Source of the DNA: a virus
Direction: 5' to 3' (one strand)
DNA length: 24,929 bases
IMG/VR virus record: IMGVR_UViG_3300008108_000740
Span: 1-24,929 of that record
A program made the translations under genes and the position numbers. Each line of letters opens with the position of its first letter. Position 1 is the first letter of the stretch. This document shows positions 1,189 to 24,929 of this stretch, piece by piece. The notes beneath the pieces are model-generated. The model saw only the letters and a list, made by a program, of their open reading frames with translations, made no database searches and was not told the DNA's origin.

Positions 1189-1527
1189 ATGATTAAACTA
1201 CAGAATCTATTATTAGAATCACTTTCTATTTACGAAATAGAAGTAATGATTAAAGTAGAAAGACAAGCTAATAAGGTAGACATATACAATGAAATTAGAG
1301 GTATAGATGGAGTAGTTGTTGTTAAAGTAGAACAAAATAACTATTTAAATACTTTAATTACTGACCAAACAGAATACTCTTTACTTCATATGAAATTTAT
1401 TGTAAGAAAAGAACCAAAAGATGAGTTAGCTGAAATTAAAAGAAGAGCATTAGTAACTCAAAAAATACCAGGCTTATTAAAATTTATACCTAGATATAAA
1501 ACTTTAGAAAAAATAACTACGATATAA
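1189..1527 (+). CDS. Small tagged protein (112 aa) with N-terminal MIKLQNLLLE
   Basis: Function not recognised. Residues 1-10 match the tag shared by five proteins here (M-I-K-L-x-x-L-L-x-E), ending in L-L-E, which fits a T4-type prohead-protease cleavage pattern. The rest alternates strands and helices (IEVMIKVER, DIYNEIRGIDGVVVVKVEQ, LLHMKFIVRKE), suggesting a small ferredoxin-like beta-alpha-beta fold, and the C-terminus is basic. It lies between the two neck genes, and its stop overlaps the next start (TAATG), so it is co-translated with neck proteins. It could be a minor neck component, or, if the tag is a capsid-targeting signal, a head cargo protein. Being a real gene is well supported by spacing. 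Confidence 0.8.
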   Translation: MIKLQNLLLESLSIYEIEVMIKVERQANKVDIYNEIRGIDGVVVVKVEQNNYLNTLITDQTEYSLLHMKFIVRKEPKDELAEIKRRALVTQKIPGLLKFIPRYKTLEKITTI

Positions 1528-2063
1528 TGAGTTTATTTGGAGCAAATAGAGACATAAGTTTATTTAGACACGTAAATAGAGAATTACTTAATGATATAAT
1601 TGAGCAAAAAGTAGGATATTATAAAATAGTACTAGATCGCACTGAACCAAACATGTATGGTGAGGCTTCTAAAAAAACATATAACGATCCTGTACTAATT
1701 AATTGCTTGATTGAACGTGGAGATACGACTTCAGCCGTAGATGATTTTGGCCCTGATATTAGTCGTAATATTACTTGCCGCTTTTTACGCGATGATCTCG
1801 CAGGTATTGACTTAAGCACCGAACTTGGCCCAGATGCTAGAGGCTTTACATATAACATAGTACCTGAAATAGGAGATGTAATATTATGGAATAATGATTA
1901 TTATGAAGTTGATAATGTTAATGAAAATCAGTTAGTTGTAGGTAAGGATTATAACTATTCTTATTCATCTAATACCGACAATTTTGGTTCTTCATGGTCA
2001 ATAATATTATCATGCCATTATATGAGACCAGAAATACTAGGTATAACCCAAACAAGACTATAA
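1527..2063 (+). CDS. Neck protein, T4 gp14-like
   Basis: Likely neck protein that completes the head-tail joining surface. The protein (178 aa) shows the gp14-type order: an N-terminal helix (RHVNRELLNDIIEQ), a strand followed by a MYGEASKKTYNDP segment (gp14 relatives have a YGED-like motif here), then a DDFGPDISRNITCRF region, then the I-GDVILWNNDYYEVDNV strand pair and a C-terminal beta strand. T4 gp14 is longer (256 aa), so this is a compact version. It overlaps the preceding gene by one base and is followed 11 nt later by another tagged gene. The identification is by pattern and by the gp13-gp14-gp15 order. Confidence 0.6.
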   Translation: MSLFGANRDISLFRHVNRELLNDIIEQKVGYYKIVLDRTEPNMYGEASKKTYNDPVLINCLIERGDTTSAVDDFGPDISRNITCRFLRDDLAGIDLSTELGPDARGFTYNIVPEIGDVILWNNDYYEVDNVNENQLVVGKDYNYSYSSNTDNFGSSWSIILSCHYMRPEILGITQTRL

Positions 2064-2070
2064 TATTTAT
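2064..2070 (+). promoter_or_regulatory. TATTTAT motif upstream of tagged gene 2075
   Basis: AATATTTATTGACATG, 4 nt from ATG 2075 and overlapping the end of the gp14-like stop region. As with the tape measure, the motif sits unusually close to the start codon. Confidence 0.4.
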
Positions 2071-2074
2071 TGAC

Positions 2075-2434
2075 ATGATTAAATTAATAGACATATTAAA
2101 TGAAGCAGAAATTCCTGTAACCGGAGCAAGTGGTGAAAAAGTAGCATCTTTTAAACCTAAAAAAGATGGTGAGGCTTTTGAAAGAGGATATAAAAGTATA
2201 AAAACTTCTATAGACCCGGAAACAGGTACCTTTACACAAGAATTTGAAGCTTTACCTAAATTTGATGAAATAAGAAGAAATCTTTTAAAATATAGAAGAG
2301 AAGTCCAAGCATTTAAATTTTCAACTAATGAAGATGTAGCTAAAGTAGCTAAAGATGCGAATGCTACTCTATATAAAGCTGCTCAACTAGTATTAGCTTT
2401 AGATAAAATGTTAGAATTACAAAGACAAAAATAA
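2075..2434 (+). CDS. Small tagged protein (119 aa) with N-terminal MIKLIDILNE
   Basis: Function not recognised. An in-frame ATG exists at 1994, but the ATG at 2075 is preferred: it falls just after the upstream stop, follows an ATATTTAT motif, and gives the MIKLIDILNE tag found on four other proteins. After the tag come a flexible Gly/Lys-rich stretch (TGASGEKVASFKPKKDG) and a charged C-terminal helical half ending in LALDKMLELQRQK. It lies between the gp14-like and gp15 genes, with only 2 nt before the latter. By analogy with T4 internal proteins it could be a packaged head protein cleaved after the LNE; this is inference. Confidence 0.75.
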   Translation: MIKLIDILNEAEIPVTGASGEKVASFKPKKDGEAFERGYKSIKTSIDPETGTFTQEFEALPKFDEIRRNLLKYRREVQAFKFSTNEDVAKVAKDANATLYKAAQLVLALDKMLELQRQK

Positions 2435-2436
2435 TA

Positions 2437-3699
2437 ATGGCTAAATCTCTTAAACCTATACCTAAAAATGCAGCTGAAATTAGTCAAGAACAAGTTACTC
2501 CTTATTTAAAAAATCAAGGAAAACCTGTTAGTGATACTGTTTTTTCTAAAAATAGAGGTAAAGATATATCATTTAAGGGAGATACTGTTAAAGATGTAAG
2601 TATAGGAATAGAAGATTTAGATTATGCTGTGTTATACTATTTTGAAAATGTTATAAAACCTAGTGTAATTCAAAATGGACAACAAATAACTGTTCCCGTA
2701 ATTTATGGTTCTCCTGAAAGATGGAAATCAGTTCAAGCCGATGGTTTTTATCGTGATGCTAACGGTAAAGGATTAGCTCCTTTAATTATGTTTAAACGTG
2801 AAAGTGTTGAAAAAAATAGAAGTCTAGGAAATAAATTAGATGGCAACAGAGCCCATTTATATCAGGTTATAGGTACAAAATATAATATAAGAAATGCATA
2901 TGATAGATTTTCAGTTGTAAATAACAGAATACCTTCAGAACAATATTATATAAGTACTGTTCCTGACTATGTTACTTTAACCTATTCGTGTGTTATATTT
3001 ACTGACTATGTTGAACAAAATAATAAGTTAGTAGAAGCTATTAATTTTGCTTCAGATTCATATTGGGGAGATCTAAATAGGTGGAAGTTTAAAGCAAGAA
3101 TAGACTCATTTACTACAACTACTTTATTAGAACAAGGAGAAGACAGAGCAGCTCGCTCTACATTTAATCTTATTTTAAATGGATATATAATTCCTAATAC
3201 GGTAAATAAAGATTTAGCAGTAGCTCGTAGCAAATTTTACACAACATCACAGGTAGTATTTAATTTAGAGGTAATAGATAGTGGTGGTACTATAACTAAT
3301 ATAGACGAAATGAAATTTGCAAATAAACCAGCAGCTAAAAACGCTACAGGAGCTACTTCATTTATAGGAGGAGGAATTAATATAACTAGTGTAATTGGAG
3401 CAGGTAATGATGACGTAGAGTACATAAATACTAATATTGCTAAAATAGCCAATAGCATAACCATTCCTGATACAGCAATTTTTTATAGCTCATCTATATT
3501 GCAACCACCAGCAGGCTCAAGTTTACCTCCTACATCAGTAAATAATTTTGTATTTTATATTAATGGCCAATACGTTCCTTCTTCTGCTATAACATTATCA
3601 GAAAGTGGAGGAAATGTAACAGCATTATTTAATACATCATCTATAGGATATTCATTAAGTTTAACAGACGAAATAACAGCAATAGGGAAATTCACATAA
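2437..3699 (+). CDS. gp15: Proximal tail sheath stabiliser / tail completion protein, gp15-like
   Basis: Caps the head-proximal end of the tail tube and sheath in T4-like phages. The pattern follows T4 gp15 closely: a helix then I-T-VPVIYGSPERWKS (about residues 83-97; T4 has VPITYAS at this place), then a YSCVIFTDYVEQNNKLVEAI strand-helix (about 183-202), then a WGDLNRWKFKARIDSF region, and an acidic loop followed by R-STFNLILNGYIIPN (about 240-254). The family core ends near residue 260. This protein is 420 aa against 272 in T4 because of a Gly/Ser/Asn-rich C-terminal extension of about 150 residues that looks like a small beta domain. Its stop overlaps the next start by one base. Confidence 0.8.
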   Translation: MAKSLKPIPKNAAEISQEQVTPYLKNQGKPVSDTVFSKNRGKDISFKGDTVKDVSIGIEDLDYAVLYYFENVIKPSVIQNGQQITVPVIYGSPERWKSVQADGFYRDANGKGLAPLIMFKRESVEKNRSLGNKLDGNRAHLYQVIGTKYNIRNAYDRFSVVNNRIPSEQYYISTVPDYVTLTYSCVIFTDYVEQNNKLVEAINFASDSYWGDLNRWKFKARIDSFTTTTLLEQGEDRAARSTFNLILNGYIIPNTVNKDLAVARSKFYTTSQVVFNLEVIDSGGTITNIDEMKFANKPAAKNATGATSFIGGGINITSVIGAGNDDVEYINTNIAKIANSITIPDTAIFYSSSILQPPAGSSLPPTSVNNFVFYINGQYVPSSAITLSESGGNVTALFNTSSIGYSLSLTDEITAIGKFT

Positions 3700-4082
3700 T
3701 GGCACTAATAACCAGTAAACAAATACAGTACCCATTATCGGGCTTATTCAGTGGATCGTTTAGCGGTGATGGTAGTGGTTTGACTAACTTATCGATTGAT
3801 GGATTTCAAATAACCTCAGGAAGTGTTAGTGCTAGTGTTAATCCAATAGGAGATTTATTTTTAGTTAAGTCAGCAAGCGCTGAATTTTTAAAAATAACTT
3901 CTAATACTACAACTATAACTAATGATATTTTTATAATTAAGGATAACAACAATAAACCAACATTTACTATAAGTGAAAGTATAATATATTTTGCTACTCA
4001 GTCAACTGAATTAACAGGTTCAACTATAGCTGGAAGTATGTATTTTACTTCATCATCGTTTTACGTAGGACTAGAAAACTAA
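3699..4082 (+). CDS. Short fibre-like structural protein (127 aa)
   Basis: A small Ser/Thr/Gly/Ile-rich beta protein opening the fibre locus. The N-terminus (PLSGLFSGSFSGDGSGLTNL) is typical of modular phage fibre shafts, and the C-terminus (GSMYFTSSSFYVGLEN) resembles the short G-x-[IM]-Y-[FV] endings of the longer fibres at 6178 and 11997. It starts inside the gp15 stop (TAATG), so it is translationally coupled to the tail-completion gene. It may be a short tail or collar fibre, or a fibre trimmed to its two ends. No catalytic residues or transmembrane segments are visible. Confidence 0.65.
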   Translation: MALITSKQIQYPLSGLFSGSFSGDGSGLTNLSIDGFQITSGSVSASVNPIGDLFLVKSASAEFLKITSNTTTITNDIFIIKDNNNKPTFTISESIIYFATQSTELTGSTIAGSMYFTSSSFYVGLEN

Positions 4083-4085
4083 ATA

Positions 4086-4093
4086 TATTTATA
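4086..4093 (+). promoter_or_regulatory. TATTTATA motif upstream of fibre gene 4116
   Basis: TATTTATA within ATATATTTATAAC, 22 nt before the ATG and just after the preceding stop. It is one of about a dozen copies placed upstream of genes here; candidate late promoter. Confidence 0.5.
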
Positions 4094-4115
4094 ACAAACA
4101 TAAAAACAATATACA

Positions 4116-6158
4116 ATGGCAGAATGGAAAAAAGTCGTAGTCTCAGGTTCTGTAGCTGAATTAGAAAACCACTTTAATGGTGAACCAACAATAAATCCTT
4201 GGTCAACTGGTCTTGATGGAAGTTATTTCAGTACATTTTCACCTACAACCTACACTTCAGATATATTAAGATTTATAGCAGGGTTATTAAGCGCCTCAGC
4301 TCCTGCACCTTCACCTAACACTAGAACATTCGCTAATATTAGTGAAACTATTACAAACAACGGTACTGGAACTGCACCTGCAGGTTATGTACCTCAAAGT
4401 TTTACAGGTGCTGATTTAACTTATTTAGTTAATCAAGGGTTTGCTTCAGTAGGTGGTACTTTATTTCCTAGTAGAACAATATTCAATAACTCAAGTTTTA
4501 ATATAGTTTATAATAGTGTTGCTGGTGGTTCTACAACAGTATCTTCATCCGCTGATGCTCAATTATTTGGTTTAGGAACTTTATCTGAGGTTCCATTTCG
4601 TGTGTCAGGAGCAATAAGTTGGTTTTACTCAGATAACAACAGTGAAACCGTAACTGCAACTTCACAATCACAAGCTTTATTATCATTATCAACTACAGGT
4701 TCTTCAGGTGGTTTAACGTTAGCTAGAATTAACACAGCTAATCCATTAGTTATCCCTCCAGCATTCCAAGATGGTAAATTTGCTGGTGTATTTAGTTCAG
4801 GACTATTCAATAATGGAAGATCATTTACTAGTGTAAGTTCATCAGGTTGGTACCATATATCAGCATCTATTAGAATAAATACCGGTTCTTCAGCATACAG
4901 CACAGCACAAACTATTACTGAAAGAGTATTTTATGCTCCAACAACTAATATTAATACTAACATTGGTAGTAATAGTTTATCATATACAGGTGGTGTAACA
5001 GCTTCATTAACAGCAACATCACGCTCATTAAGTGGTGCTCCTTATTTATTAACTGCTACTTGGTCTCAAATATCAACAGCAAGTGGTTTCTTCTCACCTT
5101 TATATGCTGCTGATTCAACATTATCTGATTTAAACACAGCAAATTCATTAGTTGCTTTAAGTGGTATAACAGCTGCTTCAACCGCTGGAGGTACAGTTCA
5201 AACTGCAAATGCTATATTTGATTCAACAGGCGTAACTCCAAGATCAACAGGTACAGTACCTTTTATAAATGATATAGTTAAATTAAGTGGTAGTGTATCA
5301 TTTAATGCTGGTTCAAGTGGTGCTACAAATATCCAACAAGGAAGTTCTTTATCTACAACTACATTTACAGTATTAACAAGAGGTAAAGACAGAACCGGAA
5401 CCCAATCAACATTAAACACACAAACTTATTTATTTCACTCAGCCAGTGCTTTTGATCAACCATTATCTTCAGGATCAATGGCTTATTATGGTAGAGCACA
5501 AGGATTTGATTCTAATACATTAACTGGTGGATCTGAAACATTCGTAGGAGAAACTTCTAGATTACGAATAGATAATAATGTTTTATCAGGTTCATATAAT
5601 AGTGGAGGAAAATGGACTACCGGTTCATATAGCGCTTACACATTAGGAGCATTAGATTTACAAGTTAAACCTGGATTCTTAGTAAGACCAGGTGGTTCAT
5701 ATGGTTATTGGTTAGCAGATCCAAACAGTGGTAAAACATATAAATACTATGCTAGAGCATTTAGACGTGATTTAGCAACTGCTGCTACTTCAATGACTAT
5801 AAACGTAGGTAGAACATTAGTAGGCTGGAACTCAGCTACATCTGGTGTAGCAGTTGCTTTAGTATTTGCTAGTTCAGGTGTCAATTTATATTCTACTCCT
5901 AGAATTTATGACCCAACTGCTACAACATCTAACTTAATTAGTGCTAATGTATCTAATGATGATTTTATTAATCCGTTTACTAGAAACATAGATTTATATG
6001 GTAATACAGGTGGTAGTGTTGCTTCAACAACATATACAGTTCCATTAAGAGCAGCAGATGGTATGACATTAGATACTACTTACAGAGACTTAATTGTACT
6101 TGTAAGATACAATGGAGACCAATTACCAATAACAAGTATAGCAGTAACATATTCATAA
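4116..6158 (+). CDS. Large fibre/adhesin-like virion protein with MAEWKKVVVSGS N-terminus
   Basis: A 680-residue, low-charge protein rich in Ser, Thr, Gly, Ala and Asn with almost no Cys, typical of extended beta-rich virion appendages. Residues 1-12 share W-K-K-V-x-x-S-G-S with the fibre at 8870 (MPNWKKVLTSGS), which I take as a common attachment tag. Repeated strand-like units such as GSVSFNAGSSG and GGVTASLTATSRSLSG suggest several Ig-like or beta-sandwich domains, and the C-terminus (RDLIVLVRYNGDQLPITS) is a compact beta end. It is preceded by a TATTTATA motif and an A-rich leader without Shine-Dalgarno. The precise role (whisker, collar or tail fibre) cannot be told from sequence. Confidence 0.7.
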   Translation: MAEWKKVVVSGSVAELENHFNGEPTINPWSTGLDGSYFSTFSPTTYTSDILRFIAGLLSASAPAPSPNTRTFANISETITNNGTGTAPAGYVPQSFTGADLTYLVNQGFASVGGTLFPSRTIFNNSSFNIVYNSVAGGSTTVSSSADAQLFGLGTLSEVPFRVSGAISWFYSDNNSETVTATSQSQALLSLSTTGSSGGLTLARINTANPLVIPPAFQDGKFAGVFSSGLFNNGRSFTSVSSSGWYHISASIRINTGSSAYSTAQTITERVFYAPTTNINTNIGSNSLSYTGGVTASLTATSRSLSGAPYLLTATWSQISTASGFFSPLYAADSTLSDLNTANSLVALSGITAASTAGGTVQTANAIFDSTGVTPRSTGTVPFINDIVKLSGSVSFNAGSSGATNIQQGSSLSTTTFTVLTRGKDRTGTQSTLNTQTYLFHSASAFDQPLSSGSMAYYGRAQGFDSNTLTGGSETFVGETSRLRIDNNVLSGSYNSGGKWTTGSYSAYTLGALDLQVKPGFLVRPGGSYGYWLADPNSGKTYKYYARAFRRDLATAATSMTINVGRTLVGWNSATSGVAVALVFASSGVNLYSTPRIYDPTATTSNLISANVSNDDFINPFTRNIDLYGNTGGSVASTTYTVPLRAADGMTLDTTYRDLIVLVRYNGDQLPITSIAVTYS

Positions 6159-6177
6159 TAAAAAGTAATAATACAAC

Positions 6178-8319
6178 ATGGCAATTGATAGAACAATAAA
6201 ATCAAGTAGGCTCTTACAAAGTAGACGCTATACACAAGCATCATTATCAGATGCTCAAGAAGCATTTACCAGTGTATTAGATATAAACTCTAGAGAAGTA
6301 TATGCTCAGGCAAGCCTAATACCTACATCTAGTTTACCCTTCTCAGGTTCAAGCCAAAGCGGCAGTATATATTCTGTTGGAGGACAAAACATATTAAGAT
6401 ATTGGTTTCAACATCCATTAACACCATCAAACGTTGTTAGTGGTTCAGTAGTTGATGCCTGGTTCTTTATTGATCCATCAGGATCAGCGGTTACTCCTCA
6501 GATCATACAAACAGGTCAACAAAATAATTTTGTATCAAACAAATACGCTTCACCATCATTAACAAACGCAGATGCTCAAGATAACCCTCCAGGTTACAAC
6601 ATTGTAGTTTTAATCGACAATGTAAAACAAAATCCAGCTTCATATCAGTTTGATTATAAAAATGGTGTTTTACAATTTGTTACTGCTGCTCCACTTCCAA
6701 CAGCTGTAGTTAGAGTAACAGCCTATCAATATGTTGGTCAAACAGTTGATACTGCATTAACCAACTTAAGTGCCTCTATTTCAGGAGTTAGCGGTTCATT
6801 AAGTAATTTAAGTAGTGATAAAATTGCTACAGGTGCTGTTACCGCTTCAGTTGCTACAGGTTCAAATACATTTACTATTACAAATGGTGGTACTTCATTA
6901 TTTAAAATAAAAAATAATGGTGCTATAGAGCATGGACCTTCAGTATTAGCTGAAGGAGTTTATTCATATGCTGCTGGTGATTCTACTAAAGCAATTGGGG
7001 ACTATTCACATGCTGAAGGTAATAGCACATACGCCGGTTTTAAAGGATATAATTCTGTTGATATAGGTTCGACAACCCCAGGTGATATTTACTTAAATGC
7101 AGGTTATGGTGATGTTTCAAGTCAATTTTCTAGTGGTTATATAGTATTAGATGATACTAATTACAACCAAGCCTACCTCACTACTAAACTAGAAATAGCA
7201 AATGTTCAGTTTGATGGTACTAATACAATTATAACATTAGTTAATACAAGTATCACAGGAACTGGAGCTATAATAGGTGTTTTTAATAATCCAACACCAA
7301 CTGGAGCAGACCAAATAGCAGGAAACACTTCACATGCTGAAGGTTTTAATACTCAAGCCTTAGGAAATTATTCACATGCTGAAGGTGATACTACTAAAGC
7401 AATAGGAAGTTATTCACATGCAGAAGGTAATGGTACTCAAGCAACAGGATACGCTTCACATGCTGAAGGCACTAGTACTCAAGCATTAGGAGATTATTCA
7501 CACGCTGAAGGTGAAAGTACAATTGCCTCTGGATACGCATCACATGCAGAAGGTCTTAATACTCAAGCAATAGGAAATTATTCACATGCTGAAGGTTCTG
7601 ATACTCAAGCCTTAGGAAATTATTCACATGCTGAAGGTGAAAATACAACAGCATCTGGATACGCATCACATGCTGAAGGTGTAGGTACAATTGCATCCGG
7701 TTCTGGACAAACAGTAATGGGTAAATACAATACCCAAAACAATGATACTTCATTAGTAATAATAGGTAATGGTATTGATGATAGTACTAGAAGTGATTTA
7801 GTATTATTTAATTCAACAGACGTTGCATTTAACGTACCAGTAGCATCTGTAAATGTAGATTCAAATGCTTTTACAATTATAAGCGCATCTAGTACATTAC
7901 TTAATGTAGCAAATTCTGGATTAGTTACAGTATCAAATTTAACAGTAAATGATAACTTAGTTGTAAACGGTACCGCTTCATTTATTAATACAGAAAACTT
8001 ATCTGTTAAAGATAGATTCATATTAATTAATAGTGGTTCTTCTACATTAGCAGATTCAGGATGGGTTACCCAATACAACGCAGCCGGTTCAGGTTCAGCA
8101 TTTTATTTAGATGCAGATACAACAGGAACATATGGTCGTTTTGCAGTAGCATTTGATGTTGTAGGTAATGAAAGTATTGTAACCGCTAACGAGTATGTAG
8201 TTACCGCTCGTCAAGCATCAGGAGCACCCCCAGCAACACCAACATGGGGTGGTGCAACCAACGGCTTCGGTAATATTTACGTAAACAGTGATAACGGTGA
8301 TATCTTTATCTATTCTTAA
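6178..8319 (+). CDS. Tail fibre with YadA-head-like SHAEG repeats
   Basis: A 713-residue fibre. Residues 1-230 form an N-terminal virion-binding and strand region (with NGVLQFVTAAPL and a coiled LTNLSASISGVSGSLSNLSSDK stretch). One SHAEG occurs near residue 277, followed by an inserted stretch of about 100 residues, then nine consecutive 14-residue repeats of the form SHAEG-x-x-T-x-A-x-G-x-[YA] from about residue 385. This is the hallmark of the left-handed beta-roll in YadA and Hep/Hag heads, which trimerise. A cap region with MGKYN and IGNGIDDSTRSDL follows, also present in the fibre at 11997. The C-terminus (GNIYVNSDNGDIFIYS) is a short beta end. Probably a trimeric host-binding fibre. Confidence 0.8.
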   Translation: MAIDRTIKSSRLLQSRRYTQASLSDAQEAFTSVLDINSREVYAQASLIPTSSLPFSGSSQSGSIYSVGGQNILRYWFQHPLTPSNVVSGSVVDAWFFIDPSGSAVTPQIIQTGQQNNFVSNKYASPSLTNADAQDNPPGYNIVVLIDNVKQNPASYQFDYKNGVLQFVTAAPLPTAVVRVTAYQYVGQTVDTALTNLSASISGVSGSLSNLSSDKIATGAVTASVATGSNTFTITNGGTSLFKIKNNGAIEHGPSVLAEGVYSYAAGDSTKAIGDYSHAEGNSTYAGFKGYNSVDIGSTTPGDIYLNAGYGDVSSQFSSGYIVLDDTNYNQAYLTTKLEIANVQFDGTNTIITLVNTSITGTGAIIGVFNNPTPTGADQIAGNTSHAEGFNTQALGNYSHAEGDTTKAIGSYSHAEGNGTQATGYASHAEGTSTQALGDYSHAEGESTIASGYASHAEGLNTQAIGNYSHAEGSDTQALGNYSHAEGENTTASGYASHAEGVGTIASGSGQTVMGKYNTQNNDTSLVIIGNGIDDSTRSDLVLFNSTDVAFNVPVASVNVDSNAFTIISASSTLLNVANSGLVTVSNLTVNDNLVVNGTASFINTENLSVKDRFILINSGSSTLADSGWVTQYNAAGSGSAFYLDADTTGTYGRFAVAFDVVGNESIVTANEYVVTARQASGAPPATPTWGGATNGFGNIYVNSDNGDIFIYS
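7330..7707 (+). repeat. Nine 42-nt tandem SHAEG repeats
   Basis: Nine in-frame units of 42 nt (14 codons) start at 7330, 7372, 7414, 7456, 7498, 7540, 7582, 7624 and 7666, each opening with a variant of TCACATGCTGAAGG. A tenth isolated copy is at 7006. Spacing is exact, so unit gain or loss would keep the frame. Confidence 0.9.
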
Positions 8320-8322
8320 ACA

Positions 8323-17787: not shown

Positions 17788-17819
17788 TCTCTGTTCTGCG
17801 TTTTATATAGACTAGTTGA

Positions 17820-17827
17820 TATTTATT
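17820..17827 (+). promoter_or_regulatory. TATTTATT motif upstream of tail sheath
   Basis: GATATTTATTAG, 39 nt before the sheath ATG at 17867 and after the coiled-coil stop. Variant of the recurrent TATTTATA motif; candidate late promoter. Confidence 0.45.
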
Positions 17828-17866
17828 AGTAGATTAATCTTTAATAAATTCAATTAAATATATAAA

Positions 17867-19591
17867 ATGGCAGAACAAATTATTTCACCTGGTGTATTCC
17901 AAATAGAGTCAGACCAGAGCCTTTACACAACCCAACCACCTGCGTTAGGTGCAGCAATAGTAGGTCCTACAGTTATGGGTAGACCTTTTGTACCTACTTA
18001 TGTTACTACATATTCTCAATATCTAGCATTATTTGGTGATATTTTTAAGAGTGGTAGTTACTACTATGAATACTTTACTTCACAAGCAGCTAAAGAATAT
18101 TTTCAAAATGGCGGTCAGTCATTATTAGTTACTCGTATTATTAGCGGATCAGCTAATGCAAGTACGTATGCTACATCTAATATTCCTGCTGCTTCAGGTA
18201 CAGGATCATCATTCCAATTAGAAGTTTTATCATGGGGTGACCAAATGAATAACACTTCTAGCTTAGTAAGTGGTGCTTTAGCAAGTGGTTCTTCACTAAA
18301 CGTACGTTGGGAGGTAACATCAGTAAATACAGGAAGTGGTACTTTCACTTTAGTAATTCGTCGTGGTGACGATAATGATGCTCAGAAAAATATTTTAGAA
18401 ACATGGGCTAACGTAAGTTTAGATCCTCAATTACCTAACTACATTTCTCGTGTAATAGGTGATTTAAAACCTGTTTATACAGCAGCTACAGGTAATAGCT
18501 CAGCATATATTAATTTTACTGGAACTTACCCAAACATATCACAGTATGTTCGTGTTTCATCAGTTACTACTCCAAATGTAGATTCAATTGACAATAATGG
18601 TAATTATAAAGCTACTCAATACAGTGGAAGTTTACCTACAGTAGGAAGTGGATCATATGGTGGTTCGTTCAGTGGAGGTGTAGCAGACACAAACGCTGCT
18701 AAGTTGATGAATGAAAACATTACCTCAGCAAGTATTCAAGGATTTACTCCAGCAGATTATAATACAGCATTTAGTTTATTATCTAATGCAGATGAATACA
18801 GATTTAATATGTTGTTAGCTCCTGGTGTTGGATTAGATAACTCAGCTGTATCTACTATGATAGCAACAGTAGAAGGACGTGGCGATGCAATCGCTATTAC
18901 AGATGCTGGTGTTTATGGAACTGCAATCGGAACTGCAACTCAAAATGCTTCAGGTCAATCAAGTAATTATGCTGCAACTTATTATCCTTGGGTTCAATTA
19001 TTCTCAAGTGGTTTAGGAAAAGTAGTATGGTGTCCTCCATCAACAGTAATAGGTGGTGTATTAGCATTTAACGATAGAGTAGGTGCTGAATGGTTTGCTC
19101 CAGCTGGTTTAAACAGAGGTGGTATTCCTTCAGTAGTTCGTCCTGAACGCAGATTACAACAAACAGATCGTGATACATTATATAGTGGAAATGTTAACCC
19201 AATTGCAACATTCCCAGGTACTGGTACTTGTGTATGGGGTCAGAAAACATTGCAACGTAAACCAACATCTTTAGATCGTGTAAATGTAAGACGTTTATTA
19301 ATAGCATTAAAAGATTTTATCGGTGGTGTATCTCGTACATTAGTATTCGAACAAAACACAACAGTAACTCGTAATAGATTCTTATCACAAGTTAATCCTT
19401 ATTTAGAGTCAGTAGTGCAACGTCAAGGTTTATTTGCTTATAAAGTAGTAATGGATGATACTAATAATACAGCAGATGTAGTTGATAGAAACCAATTAGT
19501 AGGCCAAATTTATATTCAACCTACTAAAACAGCTGAATTTATTATCTTGAATTTTAACATTCTACCAACTGGAGCTACATTCCCAGCTTAA
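17867..19591 (+). CDS. gp18: Tail sheath protein, gp18-like
   Basis: Forms the contractile sheath around the tail tube. The N-terminus AEQIISPGVFQIESDQS is the typical sheath opening (SPGVY..E.D.S), followed by ALGAAIVGPTVMGRPFVP and a TYSQYLALFGD loop. The middle holds a variable beta insertion (about residues 100-270). The C-terminal domain has the conserved sheath elements: RLLIALKDFIGGVSRTLVFEQN, RNRFLSQVNPYLESVVQRQGLFAYKVVMD and the handshake-strand region AEFIILNFNILPTGATF. Length 574 aa against 659 in T4 gp18. It is flanked by a TATTTATT motif upstream and a strong terminator downstream, so it is probably a separate, highly expressed unit. Confidence 0.93.
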   Translation: MAEQIISPGVFQIESDQSLYTTQPPALGAAIVGPTVMGRPFVPTYVTTYSQYLALFGDIFKSGSYYYEYFTSQAAKEYFQNGGQSLLVTRIISGSANASTYATSNIPAASGTGSSFQLEVLSWGDQMNNTSSLVSGALASGSSLNVRWEVTSVNTGSGTFTLVIRRGDDNDAQKNILETWANVSLDPQLPNYISRVIGDLKPVYTAATGNSSAYINFTGTYPNISQYVRVSSVTTPNVDSIDNNGNYKATQYSGSLPTVGSGSYGGSFSGGVADTNAAKLMNENITSASIQGFTPADYNTAFSLLSNADEYRFNMLLAPGVGLDNSAVSTMIATVEGRGDAIAITDAGVYGTAIGTATQNASGQSSNYAATYYPWVQLFSSGLGKVVWCPPSTVIGGVLAFNDRVGAEWFAPAGLNRGGIPSVVRPERRLQQTDRDTLYSGNVNPIATFPGTGTCVWGQKTLQRKPTSLDRVNVRRLLIALKDFIGGVSRTLVFEQNTTVTRNRFLSQVNPYLESVVQRQGLFAYKVVMDDTNNTADVVDRNQLVGQIYIQPTKTAEFIILNFNILPTGATFPA

Positions 19592-19599
19592 CAATAATA

Positions 19600-19634
19600 A
19601 TGTAGAGGGGTGAAAACCTCTCTACATATTTTTA
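19600..19634 (+). terminator. Terminator after tail sheath gene
   Basis: Perfect 12-bp stem (one G-T pair) ATGTAGAG../..CTCTACAT, 19600-19611 with 19616-19627, with a GAAA tetraloop, followed by a T-rich tail (ATTTTTA). A textbook rho-independent terminator 9 nt after the stop. Confidence 0.9.
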
Positions 19635-19644
19635 AATTATATAA

Positions 19645-19652
19645 TATTTATC
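19645..19652 (+). promoter_or_regulatory. TATTTATC motif upstream of tail tube
   Basis: TAATATTTATCAATAG, 21 nt before ATG 19674 and directly after the sheath terminator. The placement between terminator and gene is the expected one for a promoter. Confidence 0.5.
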
Positions 19653-19673
19653 AATAGATAACAATTAAATAAC

Positions 19674-20159
19674 ATGCCAGTACTTTCAGCAAACGAGATA
19701 ATGTTCACTGCGTTTGAACCAAAAGTTCAAAATCGCTTTATCATGTACATAGATGGTATTCCTGCTTACCTAATTAAAAAAGCAAGCTCACCTTCATTAG
19801 ACGCAGGTGAAGTAGTATTAGACCATATTAACGTTTACCGTAAAATTAAAGGTAAAGTTAGATGGAATGATATGAACTTAGAATTATACGACCCTATCAC
19901 TCCATCAGGTGCTCAAGCAGTAATGGAATGGGTTCGTTTATCACATGAATCTGTAACGGGTCGTGATGGTTACTCAGATTTCTACAAGAAAGATATTACA
20001 TTAGATGTATTAGGCCCAGTAGGTGATGTCATCAGTGAATGGGTTATCAAAGGAGCATATGTTAAAACAGCTAACTTTGGTGATTACGATTGGGCAAATG
20101 ATCAAGCAATTAACTTATCAGTATCGATTGCTATGGATTATTGTGTATTGAACTTCTGA
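19674..20159 (+). CDS. gp19: Tail tube protein, gp19-like
   Basis: Forms the inner tail tube. The length of 161 aa is nearly that of T4 gp19 (163). Family features: N-terminal NRFIMYIDGIPAYLIKKASSPSLD, where the strand leads into the tube-tube contact region; KGKVRWNDMNLELYDPITPSGAQAVMEWV; and the C-terminal beta part DITLDVLGPVGDVISEWVIKGAYVKTANFGDYDWANDQAINLSVSIAMDYC. It immediately follows the sheath gene as in T4 (18-19 order). TGA is used as its stop, showing the standard code. Flanked by terminators on both sides. Confidence 0.93.
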   Translation: MPVLSANEIMFTAFEPKVQNRFIMYIDGIPAYLIKKASSPSLDAGEVVLDHINVYRKIKGKVRWNDMNLELYDPITPSGAQAVMEWVRLSHESVTGRDGYSDFYKKDITLDVLGPVGDVISEWVIKGAYVKTANFGDYDWANDQAINLSVSIAMDYCVLNF

Positions 20160-20177
20160 TCTTTAATTAAGAAAATA

Positions 20178-20191
20178 GCGATCCAAATCGC
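20178..20191 (+). other. Small hairpin after tail tube
   Basis: GCGAT/ATCGC inverted repeat with a 4-nt CCAA loop just after the tube stop, before the main terminator. No T-run follows; it may protect the mRNA 3' end. Weak evidence. Confidence 0.3.
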
Positions 20192-20198
20192 GTCTTCT

Positions 20199-20238
20199 AA
20201 TCCTTCTATATATATATTAGTATATAGGAGGATTTTTT
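20199..20238 (+). terminator. Terminator after tail tube gene
   Basis: Long stem AATCCTTCTATATA/TATATAGGAGGATT (20199-20212 with 20221-20234, one T-G pair) with an 8-nt loop and a T-run directly after. Strong rho-independent terminator. Confidence 0.88.
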
Positions 20239-20284
20239 ATGCTTAAAAAAAACAAATTAAACAAATATTATTAGAAAATATATC

Positions 20285-20809
20285 ATGATAAAACTATCCC
20301 AAATATTGAAAGAAATATCATCATCTCCTGAATACCTCACTTTAAATACAAATGATAAAAACTTATACGAAACATATATATTATTAGGAGAATTATTAAA
20401 TCCGGATAATTCATATCCATATGAAGAAAAGATAAAAGGGTTATGGGAATATAAGGATATAATGGATAATATATATTTTGTTCGATTAACATATCAACCA
20501 ACAACTCAACCTCATTTTGAGTTAAAAACAGGATATTATAATGAACATGGTAAACCTCAATACGACCCGCCAGTACCTGATAATTCAACTAGTAAAGATT
20601 GGGATAAACGAAGTGATACTGTTGCTAAAATATATCGTGATGAAATAATACCTATGTTTATAGAGCAAAACATAAGTAATATATTAATCATAAAACCACT
20701 AGAAATTAAAAGATATCAATTTAGTGTAAGATTAATAGATAAATTTACCCCTAACAACATTCAGATAAAATATAATAAACCTCAATCTATTGTTTTAACA
20801 AAACCATAA
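20285..20809 (+). CDS. Tagged protein (174 aa) with N-terminal MIKLSQILKE
   Basis: Function not recognised. Residues 1-10 match the shared tag (M-I-K-L-x-x-I-L-x-E, ending L-K-E). The rest is a folded, aromatic-rich domain: YFVRLTYQPTTQPHFELKTGYY, NEHGKPQYDPPVPDN, DKRSDTVAKIYRDEIIPMF and LEIKRYQFSVRLIDKF, suggesting a mixed alpha/beta domain rather than a fibre. The gene sits alone between the tail-tube terminator and the chaperone transcription unit, in its own slot. If the tag acts like the T4 capsid-targeting sequence, this would be an internal head protein cut after residue 10. Confidence 0.75.
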   Translation: MIKLSQILKEISSSPEYLTLNTNDKNLYETYILLGELLNPDNSYPYEEKIKGLWEYKDIMDNIYFVRLTYQPTTQPHFELKTGYYNEHGKPQYDPPVPDNSTSKDWDKRSDTVAKIYRDEIIPMFIEQNISNILIIKPLEIKRYQFSVRLIDKFTPNNIQIKYNKPQSIVLTKP

Positions 20810-20817
20810 TATTTATC
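20810..20817 (+). promoter_or_regulatory. TATTTATC motif followed by a terminator
   Basis: TAATATTTATCACC overlaps the end of the tagged gene; about 40 nt later there is a terminator hairpin and then a second motif at 20890. If it is a promoter it would give a very short transcript. Confidence 0.35.
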
Positions 20818-20855
20818 ACCACGAAATTACTTTTTCCGAAGTATACAGAAAGATT

Positions 20856-20885
20856 GGCTTGGCTTTTGCCAGGCCTCTTCTTATC
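20856..20885 (+). terminator. Terminator before chaperone gene
   Basis: GGCTTGGC/GCCAGGCC stem (20856-20863 with 20868-20875, one T-G pair) with a TTTT loop and a T/C-rich tail (TCTTCTTAT). GC-rich for this genome. Confidence 0.75.
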
Positions 20886-20889
20886 GTTA

Positions 20890-20897
20890 TATTTATA
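20890..20897 (+). promoter_or_regulatory. TATTTATA motif upstream of tail chaperone
   Basis: TTATATTTATATAAAA, 18 nt before ATG 20916, directly downstream of a terminator. Candidate late promoter. Confidence 0.5.
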
Positions 20898-20915
20898 TAA
20901 AATAATAAGTTATAA

Positions 20916-21686
20916 ATGGAAAATACTGTTACAAAACCAAAATTCCCAACAGAGATAGTAGATTTACCTTCAAAAGGTTTACTTTATCCTAAAGAAAACC
21001 CACTATCAAGCGGTAAAATTGAAATGAAATATATGAGCGCGCGCGAAGAAGATATTCTTACAAACGCAAACTATATTAAACAAGGTACTGTTATTGATAA
21101 ACTATTGCAAGCTCTTATTGTATCTCCTATCAATTATGATGATTTATTGATTGGTGATAAAAATGCAATTTTAGTTGCCGCTCGTATATTAGGATATGGT
21201 AAAAATTACCAATTTACTTACGTTAATTCGCAAGGTCAAGAAGTAGACGCGGTAGTTGACCTAACTACTCTTAACGACAAGATAATCGAAGATTCTCTTT
21301 ATACCCCCGGTTTAAATGAGTTCAATTTTAAACTACCTCACTCAGATAATACTGTGACTTTTAAGTTATTAACACATGGTGATGAAAAGAAAATTGAAGC
21401 TGAAATAAAAGGTTTACAGAAAATCAATCCAAGTGCTACTTATGACGTAACTACTCGTTTAAAATACATGATTACATCAGTAAACGGTAATCGTGAAGTA
21501 AAAGAGATACGTGAATTCGTAGATAATTTCTTAATGGCTAGGGATGCCAGAGCATTACGTGAATATTATGTTAAAATACAACCTGATATTGAACTAAAAT
21601 ATATTCCTAATGACGAAAACTATGTTGGGGAGGGCATAGATATTCCTATTTCTCTTAACTTTTTTTGGCCTGACTCAGGAATATAG
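20916..21686 (+). CDS. Tail assembly chaperone / gp26-like baseplate hub protein (short form)
   Basis: The N-terminal half carries the gp26-family signature: VDLPSKGLLYPKENPL, then KIEMKYMSAREEDILT and a helix IDKLLQALIVSPI, followed by KNAILVAARILGYGKNYQF. A beta region (FNFKLPHSDNTVTFKLL) and an acidic helix (DEKKIEAEIKGL) follow, and the short form ends NFFWPDSGI. The gene stands between tail tube and tape measure, the standard position of G/GT-type chaperones, which bind the tape measure during assembly. T4 gp26 is 208 aa; here 256. A second frame continues for another 90 codons downstream, so a frameshifted long form is likely. The label could be baseplate hub or tail chaperone; position favours chaperone. 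Confidence 0.75.
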   Translation: MENTVTKPKFPTEIVDLPSKGLLYPKENPLSSGKIEMKYMSAREEDILTNANYIKQGTVIDKLLQALIVSPINYDDLLIGDKNAILVAARILGYGKNYQFTYVNSQGQEVDAVVDLTTLNDKIIEDSLYTPGLNEFNFKLPHSDNTVTFKLLTHGDEKKIEAEIKGLQKINPSATYDVTTRLKYMITSVNGNREVKEIREFVDNFLMARDARALREYYVKIQPDIELKYIPNDENYVGEGIDIPISLNFFWPDSGI

Positions 21687-21939
21687 ATTAGTTTTATTTA
21701 GTCAAATACACGACATTTGTTTCTGGGGACAAGGTGGATATGATTGGAATACTGTTTATGATATGCCCGTTTGGTTACGTACGTTTACCTTTAATAAAAT
21801 AAAGGAATACCATGATAAACAAAACGAGGAGATTGAAAAGCAGCAAAATATGATGAATAATAACAGTAAAAAACAAGAATTAGCAAAACCAAATATAACC
21901 CCTAAACCAGATTACGTTACAAGAGCACCTAAAAAATAG
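21640..21939 (+). CDS. Frameshift extension (T-like) of the tail chaperone
   Basis: The +1 frame relative to 20916 opens after TAG 21637-21639 and runs to TAG 21937-21939. From 21667 it reads GLTQEYRLVLFSQIHDICFW, GQGGYDWNTVYDMPVWLRTF and TFNKIKEYHDKQNEEIEKQQ, then an Asn/Lys/Pro-rich tail. This is coherent protein with no start codon near its 5' end, so it is best read as the C-terminal part of a longer product joined at the T7 run 21660-21666 (AAC-TTT-TTT-TGG in the short frame, TTT-TTT-GGC in the long frame). The fused form would be about 340 aa. A T-run length error would give the same picture. The stop lies in the terminator loop. Confidence 0.65.
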   Translation: MFLFLLTFFGLTQEYRLVLFSQIHDICFWGQGGYDWNTVYDMPVWLRTFTFNKIKEYHDKQNEEIEKQQNMMNNNSKKQELAKPNITPKPDYVTRAPKK

Positions 21940-21949
21940 GTGCTTTTTT
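21924..21949 (+). terminator. Terminator overlapping the chaperone extension stop
   Basis: AGCACCTA/TAGGTGCT 8-bp perfect stem (21924-21931 with 21937-21944), five-A loop, followed by TTTTT. The last codons and stop of the extension are inside the hairpin. Confidence 0.85.
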
Positions 21950-21952
21950 GTA

Positions 21953-21960
21953 TATTTATA
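21953..21960 (+). promoter_or_regulatory. TATTTATA motif directly before tape measure start
   Basis: TATATTTATAACATATG: only 4 nt between motif and ATG 21965, directly after a terminator. If it is a -10 element the transcript would be leaderless or nearly so. Confidence 0.45.
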
Positions 21961-21964
21961 ACAT

Positions 21965-23935
21965 ATGGCTGACGATAAAGATAAAATAATAAAAGATTTA
22001 AATCAAGCATTAGATAGCTTAGACCAAAGAATTAACGGAGCGGTAAATACATTAAACACTCAGTTTATTACTGGTTTAACTAATTCTATAAATAAGGCTA
22101 GAGATTTAACTAAGGCTTTTGAAGATGGTGAAAAAATTGAAAAAAAATTAACATCCGAACGAAGAAAAATTAATAATAGTATAGATTCTAGTCTTCGTTT
22201 AGAAGCTAAATTACAAGATAAAATATTAAAAGCTAACACAACAGGAAACTATACTAAAGCCGCATCTCTACAAATCCAATTAGACTCTCTAGTAGCTCAA
22301 AGAGAAATAAATGAGGAATTAGATTATAATTTACTACAACTAGAGAAAGCAAATAGTTTAGAAAGGCAACTAACAGAAGAAAAGAAAAAACAAAATTCAC
22401 TCAGCGGAGTAGCTAAAAAACTATATGACGATAACTTTAAAAAAATAGTAAACTCTTTTACTACCCTACAAGGTGTAATAGATTTACTGATTAAAGCTGC
22501 TTTTAATTTTAATAAAGTATCAGTCGATGTAGGTAAGAATTTTGGATATGGAGCAGATCAAGCAGATAGATTAACATCTAATTTAGCATCAGCTGCTAGA
22601 AATTCAAGTAATGTTAACTTTACATTAAAGAATGCGGCCGAAGCAATGACCCAGTTGAATGAACAAACTGGATTTGTTGCAGAATACTCAGCACAAACAC
22701 TTGAAACTCAAATAATGTTAACCAAACAGTTTGGTTTAACAGCAGAAGAGGCATCAGGAATATATAAGTTCTCAGTATTAACTGGTAAATCTACAGAACA
22801 AATAAACAAGTCGATGGTGGGAGCATATGTTGCTGCTCGTAATCAACTTGGAGTAGGAATACCATTTAAAGCTACTATGGCTGAAGCCGCTAAGGTGTCA
22901 GGTCAATTAGCAGCTAACCTAAAAAATAATCCTGAGTTTATAGTTAAAGCAGTAGCTCAAGCAAAAGCATTAGGTACTACTTTAGAACAAACTAAAAAAC
23001 AGGGTGAATCATTATTAGAATTTGAATCTTCAATTGAAGCTGAATTAAAAGCTGAATTATTGACAGGTCAAGCCCTTAATTTAGAAAGAGCTAGAGCAGC
23101 AGCATTAATGGGTGACCAAGTTACAGTAATGAAGGAACTTAATAATCAAGGAATGACACTTGAGAAGTTCCAAGCAATGAATGTATTAGCCCAAAAATCA
23201 TTTGCTTCTGCTATTGGTTTAAGTGCAGATGAATTAGCAAATCAACTTAGACAACAGAAATTAGCAGTTGAAAGTGGTAAGTCATTAGCTCAAATTACTG
23301 AGGAAGAAGCAATAGAAGCACAAAAACGCCAAAACATACAAGATAAATTTAATGCTGCTGTCGATAAATTAAAAGACTTAATAGGTAATTTAGTAGCAGG
23401 TCCTCTTGGTAAGTTTTTGGATATGATAAGTAGTATATTATCTCATACAACTGCTTTAAAAATAGTTGTAGCAGGATTGGCAGGATATATGGTAGCCTCT
23501 CTTATCCCCTCATTTAGTAGATTAGCAGTAATAATGAGATATATAAGAATGCAAGGAATAGGAACTGCTATAGCTACTGCTATTTCAAATCCATTTGCCG
23601 CTATAGCTGGTTTGGCTACGGCCGGTATAGTAGGAGCATATTTAAATTCCAAAACGGCAGATGACATGGTATCTGAAGGAGGTTATGGGAAACGCACATT
23701 ATTAGCTCCAGAAGGTGCTATTAAGTTAAATGATAAAGATACAATAATAGCGGGAACTAATTTAGGTAGATCTAACCCACAACCTCAACAAATAGACAAC
23801 ACAGCTTTAATAGCAGCTATCAATAGACAAACCGATGTAATAGCTAGTAAAAATTATACACCAACATTACAAGCAATAGTAGAGGGCTCAGTATTAGCAA
23901 CGGGAACTGTTCAAAATTCTTATAACTTAGCTTAA
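21965..23935 (+). CDS. Tail tape measure protein
   Basis: Sets tail length and is threaded through the tube. At 656 aa it is close to T4 gp29 (590), implying a tail of similar order. The N-terminal 160 residues are charged coiled coil (DQRINGAVNTLNTQFITGL, EDGEKIEKKLTSERRK). The middle is helical with FGYGADQADRLTSNLASAA and LERARAAALMGDQVTVMKEL. Two hydrophobic stretches lie near residues 495-515 (ALKIVVAGLAGYMVASLI) and 543-560 (AAIAGLATAGIVGAYL), typical of tape-measure C-terminal regions. The end has EGGYGKRTLLAPEGAIKLND and a short helical tail. Position right after the chaperone confirms the role. Motif TATTTATA and a terminator precede it. Confidence 0.88.
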   Translation: MADDKDKIIKDLNQALDSLDQRINGAVNTLNTQFITGLTNSINKARDLTKAFEDGEKIEKKLTSERRKINNSIDSSLRLEAKLQDKILKANTTGNYTKAASLQIQLDSLVAQREINEELDYNLLQLEKANSLERQLTEEKKKQNSLSGVAKKLYDDNFKKIVNSFTTLQGVIDLLIKAAFNFNKVSVDVGKNFGYGADQADRLTSNLASAARNSSNVNFTLKNAAEAMTQLNEQTGFVAEYSAQTLETQIMLTKQFGLTAEEASGIYKFSVLTGKSTEQINKSMVGAYVAARNQLGVGIPFKATMAEAAKVSGQLAANLKNNPEFIVKAVAQAKALGTTLEQTKKQGESLLEFESSIEAELKAELLTGQALNLERARAAALMGDQVTVMKELNNQGMTLEKFQAMNVLAQKSFASAIGLSADELANQLRQQKLAVESGKSLAQITEEEAIEAQKRQNIQDKFNAAVDKLKDLIGNLVAGPLGKFLDMISSILSHTTALKIVVAGLAGYMVASLIPSFSRLAVIMRYIRMQGIGTAIATAISNPFAAIAGLATAGIVGAYLNSKTADDMVSEGGYGKRTLLAPEGAIKLNDKDTIIAGTNLGRSNPQPQQIDNTALIAAINRQTDVIASKNYTPTLQAIVEGSVLATGTVQNSYNLA

Positions 23936-23936
23936 A

Positions 23937-23944
23937 ATATTAAT
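23937..23944 (+). promoter_or_regulatory. ATATTAAT motif variant upstream of gene 23960
   Basis: ATATTAATAATAAATTAAAAATT before ATG 23960 differs at only two positions from the 24600-24622 leader, which holds the standard ATATTTATA. Taken as a variant of the same element because the whole 23-nt leader is conserved. Confidence 0.4.
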
Positions 23945-23959
23945 AATAAATTAAAAATT

Positions 23960-24583
23960 ATGATAAGATTAATAGGTTTATTAAAAGAAAATATAAATTA
24001 TTTAAAACCTCAAAATAGTGAAGAAAAATTATTACCTCTTCCTAAAAAAGCAAAAGATAATGAAGGAAATACTGTAACACTAATAGGTCAAGAATCTAAA
24101 TTTATATATTGGGATGATAATGGAAATAGATGGACTTCAGATGGTGAGAATCTATATAGTAAATATAAGATGAATAGATATGATGCAATAGAATTTAAGA
24201 AAAAACCTAAACTAGAACCGGAAGCTGTAGACAAAGCTTGGGAAAAAGCATATGATGAACATACAGACTCATTAAAAATATTTGTTAACGATATATTAGA
24301 AGTTCCATATGATGTTAATTTAGGATGGAGAGATGGCGTCGATGAAGATATTATTTTTATCACATCTAAAATATATGGTACTAATCCAACTACTTTTACT
24401 ACTTACCATAAAGAAGTAGATGGAGATCAGATAGATTATAAATATGAATCATATAAACCAATAAATGCCACCGCAGATGAAATTGAAGATGCTTTAACTA
24501 AAAGAAAATTAAAAAAATTAGGTTTGGAAGGAACGATTAAATTGGTTGATCTATTAAAAGAATACACTAAATTAGTTTCCTAG
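23960..24583 (+). CDS. Tagged protein (207 aa) with N-terminal MIRLIGLLKE and a C-terminal tag copy
   Basis: Function not recognised. Residues 1-10 match the shared tag (M-I-R-L-x-x-L-L-x-E). The body is hydrophilic: KKAKDNEGNTVTLIG, IYWDDNGNRWTSDGENLYS, AWEKAYDEHTDSLKIFVND and VDEDIIFITSKIYG. Near the C-terminus (about residues 192-201) TIKLVDLLKE repeats the tag pattern, followed by YTKLVS, so the protein carries tag-like elements at both ends. It lies right after the tape measure with a 24-nt leader and a leader/tag cassette nearly identical to that of the next gene. A packaged internal head protein, processed at [LI]-x-E sites, is the working hypothesis. Confidence 0.75.
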   Translation: MIRLIGLLKENINYLKPQNSEEKLLPLPKKAKDNEGNTVTLIGQESKFIYWDDNGNRWTSDGENLYSKYKMNRYDAIEFKKKPKLEPEAVDKAWEKAYDEHTDSLKIFVNDILEVPYDVNLGWRDGVDEDIIFITSKIYGTNPTTFTTYHKEVDGDQIDYKYESYKPINATADEIEDALTKRKLKKLGLEGTIKLVDLLKEYTKLVS

Positions 24584-24600
24584 ATTTTTTAATTCTGTAA

Positions 24601-24608
24601 TATTTATA
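24601..24608 (+). promoter_or_regulatory. TATTTATA motif upstream of gene 24623
   Basis: TAATATTTATAATAAG, 14 nt before ATG 24623, in the 39-nt gap after the preceding stop. Candidate late promoter. Confidence 0.5.
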
Positions 24609-24622
24609 ATAAGTTAAAAATT

Positions 24623-24929
24623 ATGATAAAATTAATAGATTTATTAAATGAATCTCAATATTCTCAATTAGAATTAACACCAATGGGGGAATTACTTCTT
24701 AATTACCTCAACTCAGATGTTGAATCTGATAAACCTGAAAATTATCATCTATCTTCAAGAGATGAACAAATATTAATGGATATGGGAATGTATGTTACTG
24801 ATGGCTTATATACTGATAATAAATTTACTAATTTAGATATATTTGCATTAGATATAGCATCTGGAGAATATCAAGATCCACAATTAGGTAGACAAAAAGT
24901 TTTAAATAAAATAAATACTGCTATCAAAA
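24623..24929 (+). CDS. Tagged protein with N-terminal MIKLIDLLNE, truncated by the window end
   Basis: Open to the last base with no stop (102 codons visible). Residues 1-10 are the shared tag ending L-N-E. The rest so far is acidic and helical: LELTPMGELLLNYLN, SSRDEQILMDMGMYVTDGLY, NKFTNLDIFALDIASGEYQ and LGRQKVLNKINTAI, with no family recognised. It is preceded by the TATTTATA motif and a leader shared with gene 23960. Possibly one of a run of consecutive tagged genes that continues beyond the window. Confidence 0.7.
   Translation, partial: MIKLIDLLNESQYSQLELTPMGELLLNYLNSDVESDKPENYHLSSRDEQILMDMGMYVTDGLYTDNKFTNLDIFALDIASGEYQDPQLGRQKVLNKINTAIK

Follow-up and report, generated by a model that had tools for sequence, protein, structure and literature searches.

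Five window genes with a common leader

The stretch of virus DNA analysed here (IMG/VR record IMGVR_UViG_3300008108_000740, positions 1 to 24,929; hereafter, the window) contains head-tail adaptor, sheath, tube and baseplate genes, and among these sit five genes whose products open with a common ten-residue leader. In the first-pass annotation, this leader was described as a tag on otherwise unrelated proteins, similar to the capsid-targeting sequence of phage T4. The five leaders are borne out on the + strand, each with Leu8 and Glu10; all of them end in the consensus [LI]xE of the T4 prohead protease gp21. A 171,732-base relative with an identical sheath protein, G001, spans nearly all of the window: nine of ten sampled 40-mers are present in it, in order and with small length differences. 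Its six frames were scanned with a looser form of the motif, M[IVL][KRN][LIVMFY]xx[LIVMF][LIVMF]xE, which recovers every leader of the window:

1189..1218, + strand: leader MIKLQNLLLE of gene 1189 (read in the sequence; G001 motif match)
2075..2104, + strand: leader MIKLIDILNE of gene 2075 (read in the sequence; G001 motif match; start of the G008 homolog)
20285..20314, + strand: leader MIKLSQILKE of gene 20285 (read in the sequence; G001 motif match)
23960..23989, + strand: leader MIRLIGLLKE of gene 23960 (read in the sequence; G001 motif match)
24623..24652, + strand: leader MIKLIDLLNE of gene 24623 (read in the sequence; G001 motif match)

The open reading frame of gene 2075 could also start 27 codons upstream, at 1994, but the start at 2075 is favored because the homolog in the related genome G008 opens directly with its leader, MKLLDILRE. 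Behind the leaders, the bodies are as unlike as had been claimed, the five proteins falling into five different blastp clusters. From residue frequencies, the motif is expected 7.6e-6 times by chance in the 30 + strand genes of the window, and 20,000 shuffles of residues 2-31 of these genes gave a mean of 0.00025 motif starts, with a maximum of 1. The five shared leaders are real, and chance is excluded.

Distribution of the leader in related phages

The tag holds up in a genome-wide search. Seven motif matches were found in the six frames of G001, all seven at gene starts: the five genes of the window and genes 146206 and 146464. Across IMG/VR, a codon pattern for MIKLx[DN]IL[NK]E (class A leader, MIKLxDILNE) occurs in at least 120 stretches, versus 2 for the same codons permuted. 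In the 120 listed stretches, each of the 140 matches (140/140) begins a frame of 30 aa or more; further upstream the frame stays open for a median of 4 and at most 59 codons. Among 290 sources (3.90 Mb, pattern-selected ones included), the looser motif lies at most 40 codons from the preceding stop in 279 of 282 matches. Up to eight class A carriers were counted per contig examined (G013; the genomes G004, G008 and G013 were analysed without their last 1,881, 53 and 3,757 bases, respectively). Blastp of the bodies sorts the 239 non-redundant tagged proteins into 82 clusters, a count that includes one cluster over-merging 82 proteins and one probably spurious 31-aa reading frame of G002.

In the 166 sources that were not selected by the pattern, Glu10 is present in 38 of 50 non-redundant MI[KR]L starts, some of them from related phages and, hence, not all independent, versus none of 39 MI[KR][not L] starts. 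Glu10 is therefore not imposed by the regular expression. The same 38 starts pair it with a hydrophobic residue 8, and glutamate at any other position from 5 to 16 of the MI[KR]L starts does not exceed 16%. Leu4 and Leu8 are encoded by all six leucine codons, which indicates that the peptide is conserved and not the DNA.

Gene pairs whose first ten residues are similar but whose bodies are unlike were sought in a blind scan, with a control slice alongside. As a positive control, 50 kb of T4 (60-110 kb) returned a single pair, the MKTYQEFIAE of internal proteins IPII and IPIII (control 0). The scan gave 12 pairs in G001 (control 1), 15 in G002 (0), 23 in G013 (0), 10 in G005 (2) and 5 in G011 (0). 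The three pairs of G008 (control 0) do not include class A, nor do the single pair of G003 (1) and the two of G004 (1); the 11 pairs of the isolate relative immuto (3) are in many cases signal-peptide-like.

The tagged contigs of at least 30 kb often carry T4-type head genes: a portal in 18 of 33, gp21 in 16 and gp23 in 12. This sample covers 33 of the 36 such contigs among 80 stretches, with L239, L265 (the same as G002) and L272 omitted and L292-L331 lying outside it. The portal, gp21 and gp23 occur together in all four tagged contigs that reach 130 kb, and two of the 15 without a portal have a sheath gene. By comparison, a T4-type portal, the only gene sought there, is present in 3 of 35 control contigs, namely those reaching 30 kb in a set of 120 picked by an arbitrary 14-mer.

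Candidate processing sites in protease, capsid and homologous cargo

Cleavage of the leader calls for a gp21-type prohead protease, and G001 encodes one (PF03420, E 1.8e-32), together with a gp23-type capsid protein (E 2.5e-78). The window fragment itself gave no prohead protease match. In 28 aligned proteases, T4 included, H85, S140, D168 and E187 (T4 numbering) are invariant (28/28); the first three we take to be the catalytic residues, and E187 closes an [LIVM]xE in 26 of the 28. The capsid maturation site that the first-pass annotation had proposed to look for is present as well. When aligned with T4 gp23, the capsid proteins of 13 distinct relatives, G001 included and two of them partial, all show [LIV]xE at the T4 Glu65 column (13/13), followed by Ala in 11; the G001 site is VxE before A. 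In the L251 capsid protein, RLLNE precedes the A, an ending identical to that of the tag. The glutamate of T4 gp24 (MAKINELLRE) falls in the same gp23 column. As a separate observation, the capsid propeptide itself starts in a tag-like manner in some relatives (MDLKNILNE in L272, MELNQLFE in immuto).

T4 gp21 cleaves after L/I-x-E, and ten residues of IPIII are enough for head targeting; targeting is sensitive to residues 4 and 7 and processing to residues 8 and 10, an Asp at position 10 preventing the cut (PMC9026906, cited, like the other articles below, from excerpts). The conserved positions of the leader, 4, 7, 8 and 10, are the ones that govern targeting and processing of IPIII according to these excerpts.

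Bodies homologous to those of the tagged proteins also occur behind other leaders. Homologs were aligned to the body start, and subjects with a class A leader up to 30 residues ahead of the junction or up to 6 past it were dropped. This left 51 non-redundant cases from 15 families, although several are near-class-A variants just outside the regular expression (e.g., MTKLLDILKE, MISISKLLNE, MIKLSEILNQ) and two (L282:4217, L242:9847) carry a class A leader further upstream. [LIVMF]xE lies exactly at the junction in 28 of the 51 (null 2.5%) and within three residues of it in 47 (null 15.5%). Where the body is embedded more than 40 residues inside a larger protein (54 cases, 12 families), the corresponding numbers are 15 of 54 (null 3.2%) and 37 of 54 (null 19.7%).

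For example, GTLYHFTD-type domains follow MIKLIDILNE, MKISELKLLIKEEINNVLNE or MKKSQLKQLIKEEILKALNE, and AFFIGEDD bodies follow MIKLIDILNE or MKTIKLKQLIRNVINE. GxYD domains are located after MIKLIDILKE or internally, following SLNE (L241) or MAE (immuto gp088), and GGAYG domains internally, following LNE, LSE or LAE. As exceptions, some of the other leaders end in Q or D. In immuto, isolated on Flavobacterium sp. LMO8, the protease gp070 would be predicted to cut gp231 behind MIKLIDLLTE, gp082 behind MRLLELLRE, gp084 behind the IIKE in its leader, gp088 internally between MAE and GRYD, and the capsid protein gp066 behind QIVSE.

A second type of leader, LRxLIKEEIxxxLxE-like (class B), is over-represented in the first 22 residues in G001, G002, G005, G008, G013 and immuto. 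The observed and expected numbers are 7 versus 1.0 in G001, 5 versus 0.07 in G013 and 7 versus 0.78 in immuto, some of the genes listed for it being class A or class C. Class C, RMQxLAGIxxE, resembles the C-terminus of the gene between the protease and the capsid protein. That gene ends in ISRMQKLANIIK in G001 and G005, with close variants in G002 and G013, and a second gene ends in MERFQKLANIIK in G001 and G005. The G001 loci concerned are 168116-169327 and 158524-159483 (L094); matches to them are present in G002, G005, G013, G004 and immuto gp083. Other genes bear the C-terminal motif near their N-terminus, mostly followed by Glu, such as INEAKRFQELAGINE, as though the tail of a scaffold protein had come to serve as a leader.

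A putative targeting propeptide and its cargo

The ten-residue leader is very probably a capsid-targeting propeptide of the T4 kind, removed by a gp21-type prohead protease. The idea of internal capsid cargo, already put forward in the first-pass annotation, is supported by the protease, the capsid site, the specificity for gene starts and the [LIVMF]xE on other leaders of homologous cargo. During head assembly, the leader, with its hydrophobic residues 4, 7 and 8, would dock each protein on a putative partner in the prohead core. The protease would then cut after L-x-Glu10, as the matching sites suggest, and the body would stay in the head with the DNA and, by analogy with T4, be injected at infection.

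This mechanism is already known from T4, and an N-terminal targeting signal has also been described for P1 DarB (PMC9024508). What is new is that an uncultured clade has another leader sequence, that the carriers of this leader are numerous and varied, and that other [LIVMF]xE leaders, or boundaries inside larger proteins, can stand in its place. In the literature searched, no report of the leader sequence was found under several spellings, and the papers on capsid targeting, as judged from their titles, deal with T4, T4-based vectors, P1, P22 and giant phages, none with an uncultured clade. To learn which proteins a phage injects, one normally needs a cultured phage and the proteomics of its virions; a leader that is confined to gene starts and matched to the protease would yield a list of candidates for an uncultured clade from sequence. 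With its many natural cargoes, the leader also offers a test of the idea that T4-like phages use targeting sequences to bring various proteins into the head (PMC9026906).

The closest parallel is the leader of T4 IPII and IPIII: ten residues at the N-terminus, common to proteins with unlike bodies, with a bulky residue 4, hydrophobic residues 7 and 8, and Glu10 closing [LI]xE. As in T4, a gp21-type protease and a gp23-type site are found in the same genome (G001). The original comparison had extended MKTYQEFIAE to IPI and Alt as well, which does not stand: in the T4 record, IPI begins with MKTFKEFTST and has its [LI]xE at residue 19, and the leader removed from Alt has 6-7 residues (PMC9026906, PMC5694885). 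The letters also differ from IPII and IPIII (MIKLxDILNE), there are up to eight carriers per contig versus two with the identical leader in the T4 stretch, homologous cargo is also found behind other leaders, and packaging would follow by analogy. The propeptide of gp24, MAKINELLRE, has a nearly identical pattern, M-x-K-[LI]-x-[DE]-[LI]-L-x-E. It is short and cleaved (PMC5694885), but gp24 is a shell protein and not cargo. T4 Alt is a head-packaged ADP-ribosyltransferase (ART) cut at both ends (PMC9026906, PMC5694885). The tagged proteins likewise include a predicted ART-PolyVal domain (L259) and a modelled DarT/Tpt1-like fold encoded at L191:15758-16198, although the Alt leader is shorter than the tag and the ART activity of the tagged proteins is a prediction.

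In P1, the N-terminal signal of DarB, longer than 9 and shorter than 30 residues, carries a reporter into the head; BLAST of the Dar N-termini gave no common sequence, whereas the tag is one short sequence on many proteins (PMC9024508, excerpts). Polyvalent proteins of phages and conjugative elements combine a variety of modular domains for which injection is predicted, and ART-PolyVal is found in both groups (PMC5512222). Many tagged carriers, on the contrary, are small and stand behind a leader; in the larger carriers of related phages, domains are joined at or near [LIVMF]xE. In the giant phages phiKZ and SPN3US, the prohead protease cuts after Glu, and the propeptides are thought to target (PMC5694885); these are mostly longer, with the motif S/A-x-E or A-x-E (PMC9026906, PMC5694885).

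That the leader is instead an uncleaved docking peptide, for the head core or for another part of the virion (neck, tail or baseplate), is unlikely. The location of the five genes among head-tail adaptor, sheath, tube and baseplate genes would fit such a role, but the [LI]xE closed by Glu10 matches the site of the capsid protein, the cargo homology behind other leaders often starts right after an E, and two tagged genes of G001 are remote from the tail genes of the window, ~21 kb ahead of the protease gene. Even less probable is that the leader serves, as a short linear motif, to bind something other than the virion in the infected cell (for example, a clamp, a polymerase or a phage compartment). 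Several tagged bodies do resemble cytoplasmic enzymes (exonuclease, nucleotidase, phosphoribosyltransferase); against this stand the strictly N-terminal placement with a protease-type site at its end, the T4-type portals, commoner in tagged contigs (18/33 vs. 3/35), and the recovery of the T4 internal proteins by the same blind scan. Chance, low complexity or a conserved DNA element at the translation start, for which the AT-rich genome (GC 0.313) and a TATTTAT motif ahead of 37 of 241 + strand genes might speak, is ruled out by the shuffles, the permuted codons (2 vs. at least 120), the specificity for gene starts and the occurrence of every leucine codon at Leu4 and Leu8.

The TATTTAT motif of G001 is placed at most 30 nt upstream of these 37 genes (3.4 expected), which include the tail tube, the baseplate hub and the tagged genes 24967, 146206 and 146464. 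It resembles what we take to be the reverse complement of the T4 late promoter and is a candidate late promoter.

Several points weigh against a targeting propeptide. Glu10 is missing in 12 of the 50 MI[KR]L starts, and G003, G004 and G008 have a single class A match each. Among the tagged contigs, which are fragments, 13 of 33 are without gp20, gp21, gp23 and sheath. Certain tagged bodies look like enzymes of ordinary metabolism (NT5C, phosphoribosyltransferase), and a nucleotidase homolog in L242 is without the tag. The sole relative of gene 20285 is weak (G004, 29% identity) and has no class A leader. Of two leaders modelled, one is disordered and the other a low-confidence helix at residues 4-10. 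Virion mass spectrometry of this phage or of immuto was not found in the literature searched; the excerpts of PMC7077304 (Baltic Flavobacterium phages) contain none of the terms "FspM", "proteomic" and "mass spectrometry", and this article seems not to be about immuto.

The nature of the cargo was addressed with Pfam and PHROGs on 119 representatives of the 239 tagged proteins. Forty Pfam families matched at E ≤0.01, each in at most five members. Among the 25 of these 40 that were listed, ART-PolyVal in L259 (E 1.3e-27), RNase_T (E 7.1e-11) and a zeta toxin (E 1.6e-6) are above the Pfam cut-off, and NT5C is just under it; SET, Pribosyltran and others are also present. The model of the GTLYHFTD protein (mean predicted local distance difference test score, pLDDT, 73) matches Tpt1 (Z 11.1, root-mean-square deviation 2.5 over 108 residues) and DarT (Z 9.2, 3.8 over 127 residues). 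The predicted folds of tagged proteins from other contigs include the ADP-ribosyltransferase type, as in T4 Alt. Two candidates were rejected: the L295 protein is not claimed as an Acb1 acting against cyclic oligonucleotide-based antiphage signaling (CBASS), its 2H/Acb1 match being weak (E 3.7e-4, below the Pfam cut-off), nor is a kinase claimed from resemblance by eye, the one protein tested (L232:404) giving no kinase match.

A broader proposal, plausible but tentative, is that a large uncultured T4-like clade may possess an exchangeable injected arsenal, with cargo behind three interchangeable leaders (A, B and C) and also in [LIVMF]xE-bounded fusions that the prohead protease would cut into effectors within the head. 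This cargo would include ADP-ribosyltransferases, zeta-like proteins and, possibly, an Acb1-related 2H phosphodiesterase.

The tagged genes of the window are the following:

1189..1527, + strand: 112-aa protein, relatives in several genomes, predicted ferredoxin-like body
2075..2434, + strand: 119-aa protein, relatives in several genomes, no Pfam match
20285..20809, + strand: 174-aa accessory protein, downstream of the tail tube gene
23960..24583, + strand: 207-aa accessory protein, found among the 290 sources only in contigs of this phage (G001, L001 and L002)
24623..24929, + strand: accessory protein truncated by the window end (136 aa in G001), found only in contigs of the phage itself among the 290 sources

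Pfam gave nothing above the cut-off, and no ART match, for the four complete proteins and the G001 copy of the fifth, and proteins 1189, 2075 and 20285 have no PHROG match. Gene 1189 adjoins the head-tail adaptor gene at 8-1186 (phrog_211). Its product was modelled with a mean pLDDT of 88: residues 1-9 are below 50, followed by a confidently folded ferredoxin-like body whose first strand is at residue 13, which is what a removable leader would predict. Compared with the PDB, this body has only the broad ferredoxin-like arrangement in common with known structures (best E 1.6e-3, template modelling score 0.4-0.56), and its best viral matches are uncharacterised proteins. In G002, G005, G008 and G013, relatives of 1189 and 2075 are located at most ~1 kb apart, a few kb past the capsid gene. 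Proteins 20285, 23960 and 24623 look like variable accessory cargo, and 1189 and 2075 like standing components, which may belong to the head or neck and not be effectors.

Protein 23960 contains a second tag-like stretch, IKLVDLLKE (24536..24562, + strand; residues 193-201), six residues from its C-terminus; no other internal match occurs in the 40,070 residues that the tagged proteins comprise. By analogy with T4 Alt as described in the excerpts of PMC5694885, it is a possible C-terminal processing site.

In immuto (NC_055915), homologs of tagged cargo (gp080, gp082, gp084, gp087 and gp088) are clustered at 107131-113946, before the annotated terminase gene (119017), and some bear unlikely enzyme names, such as tRNA agmatinyltransferase for gp082.

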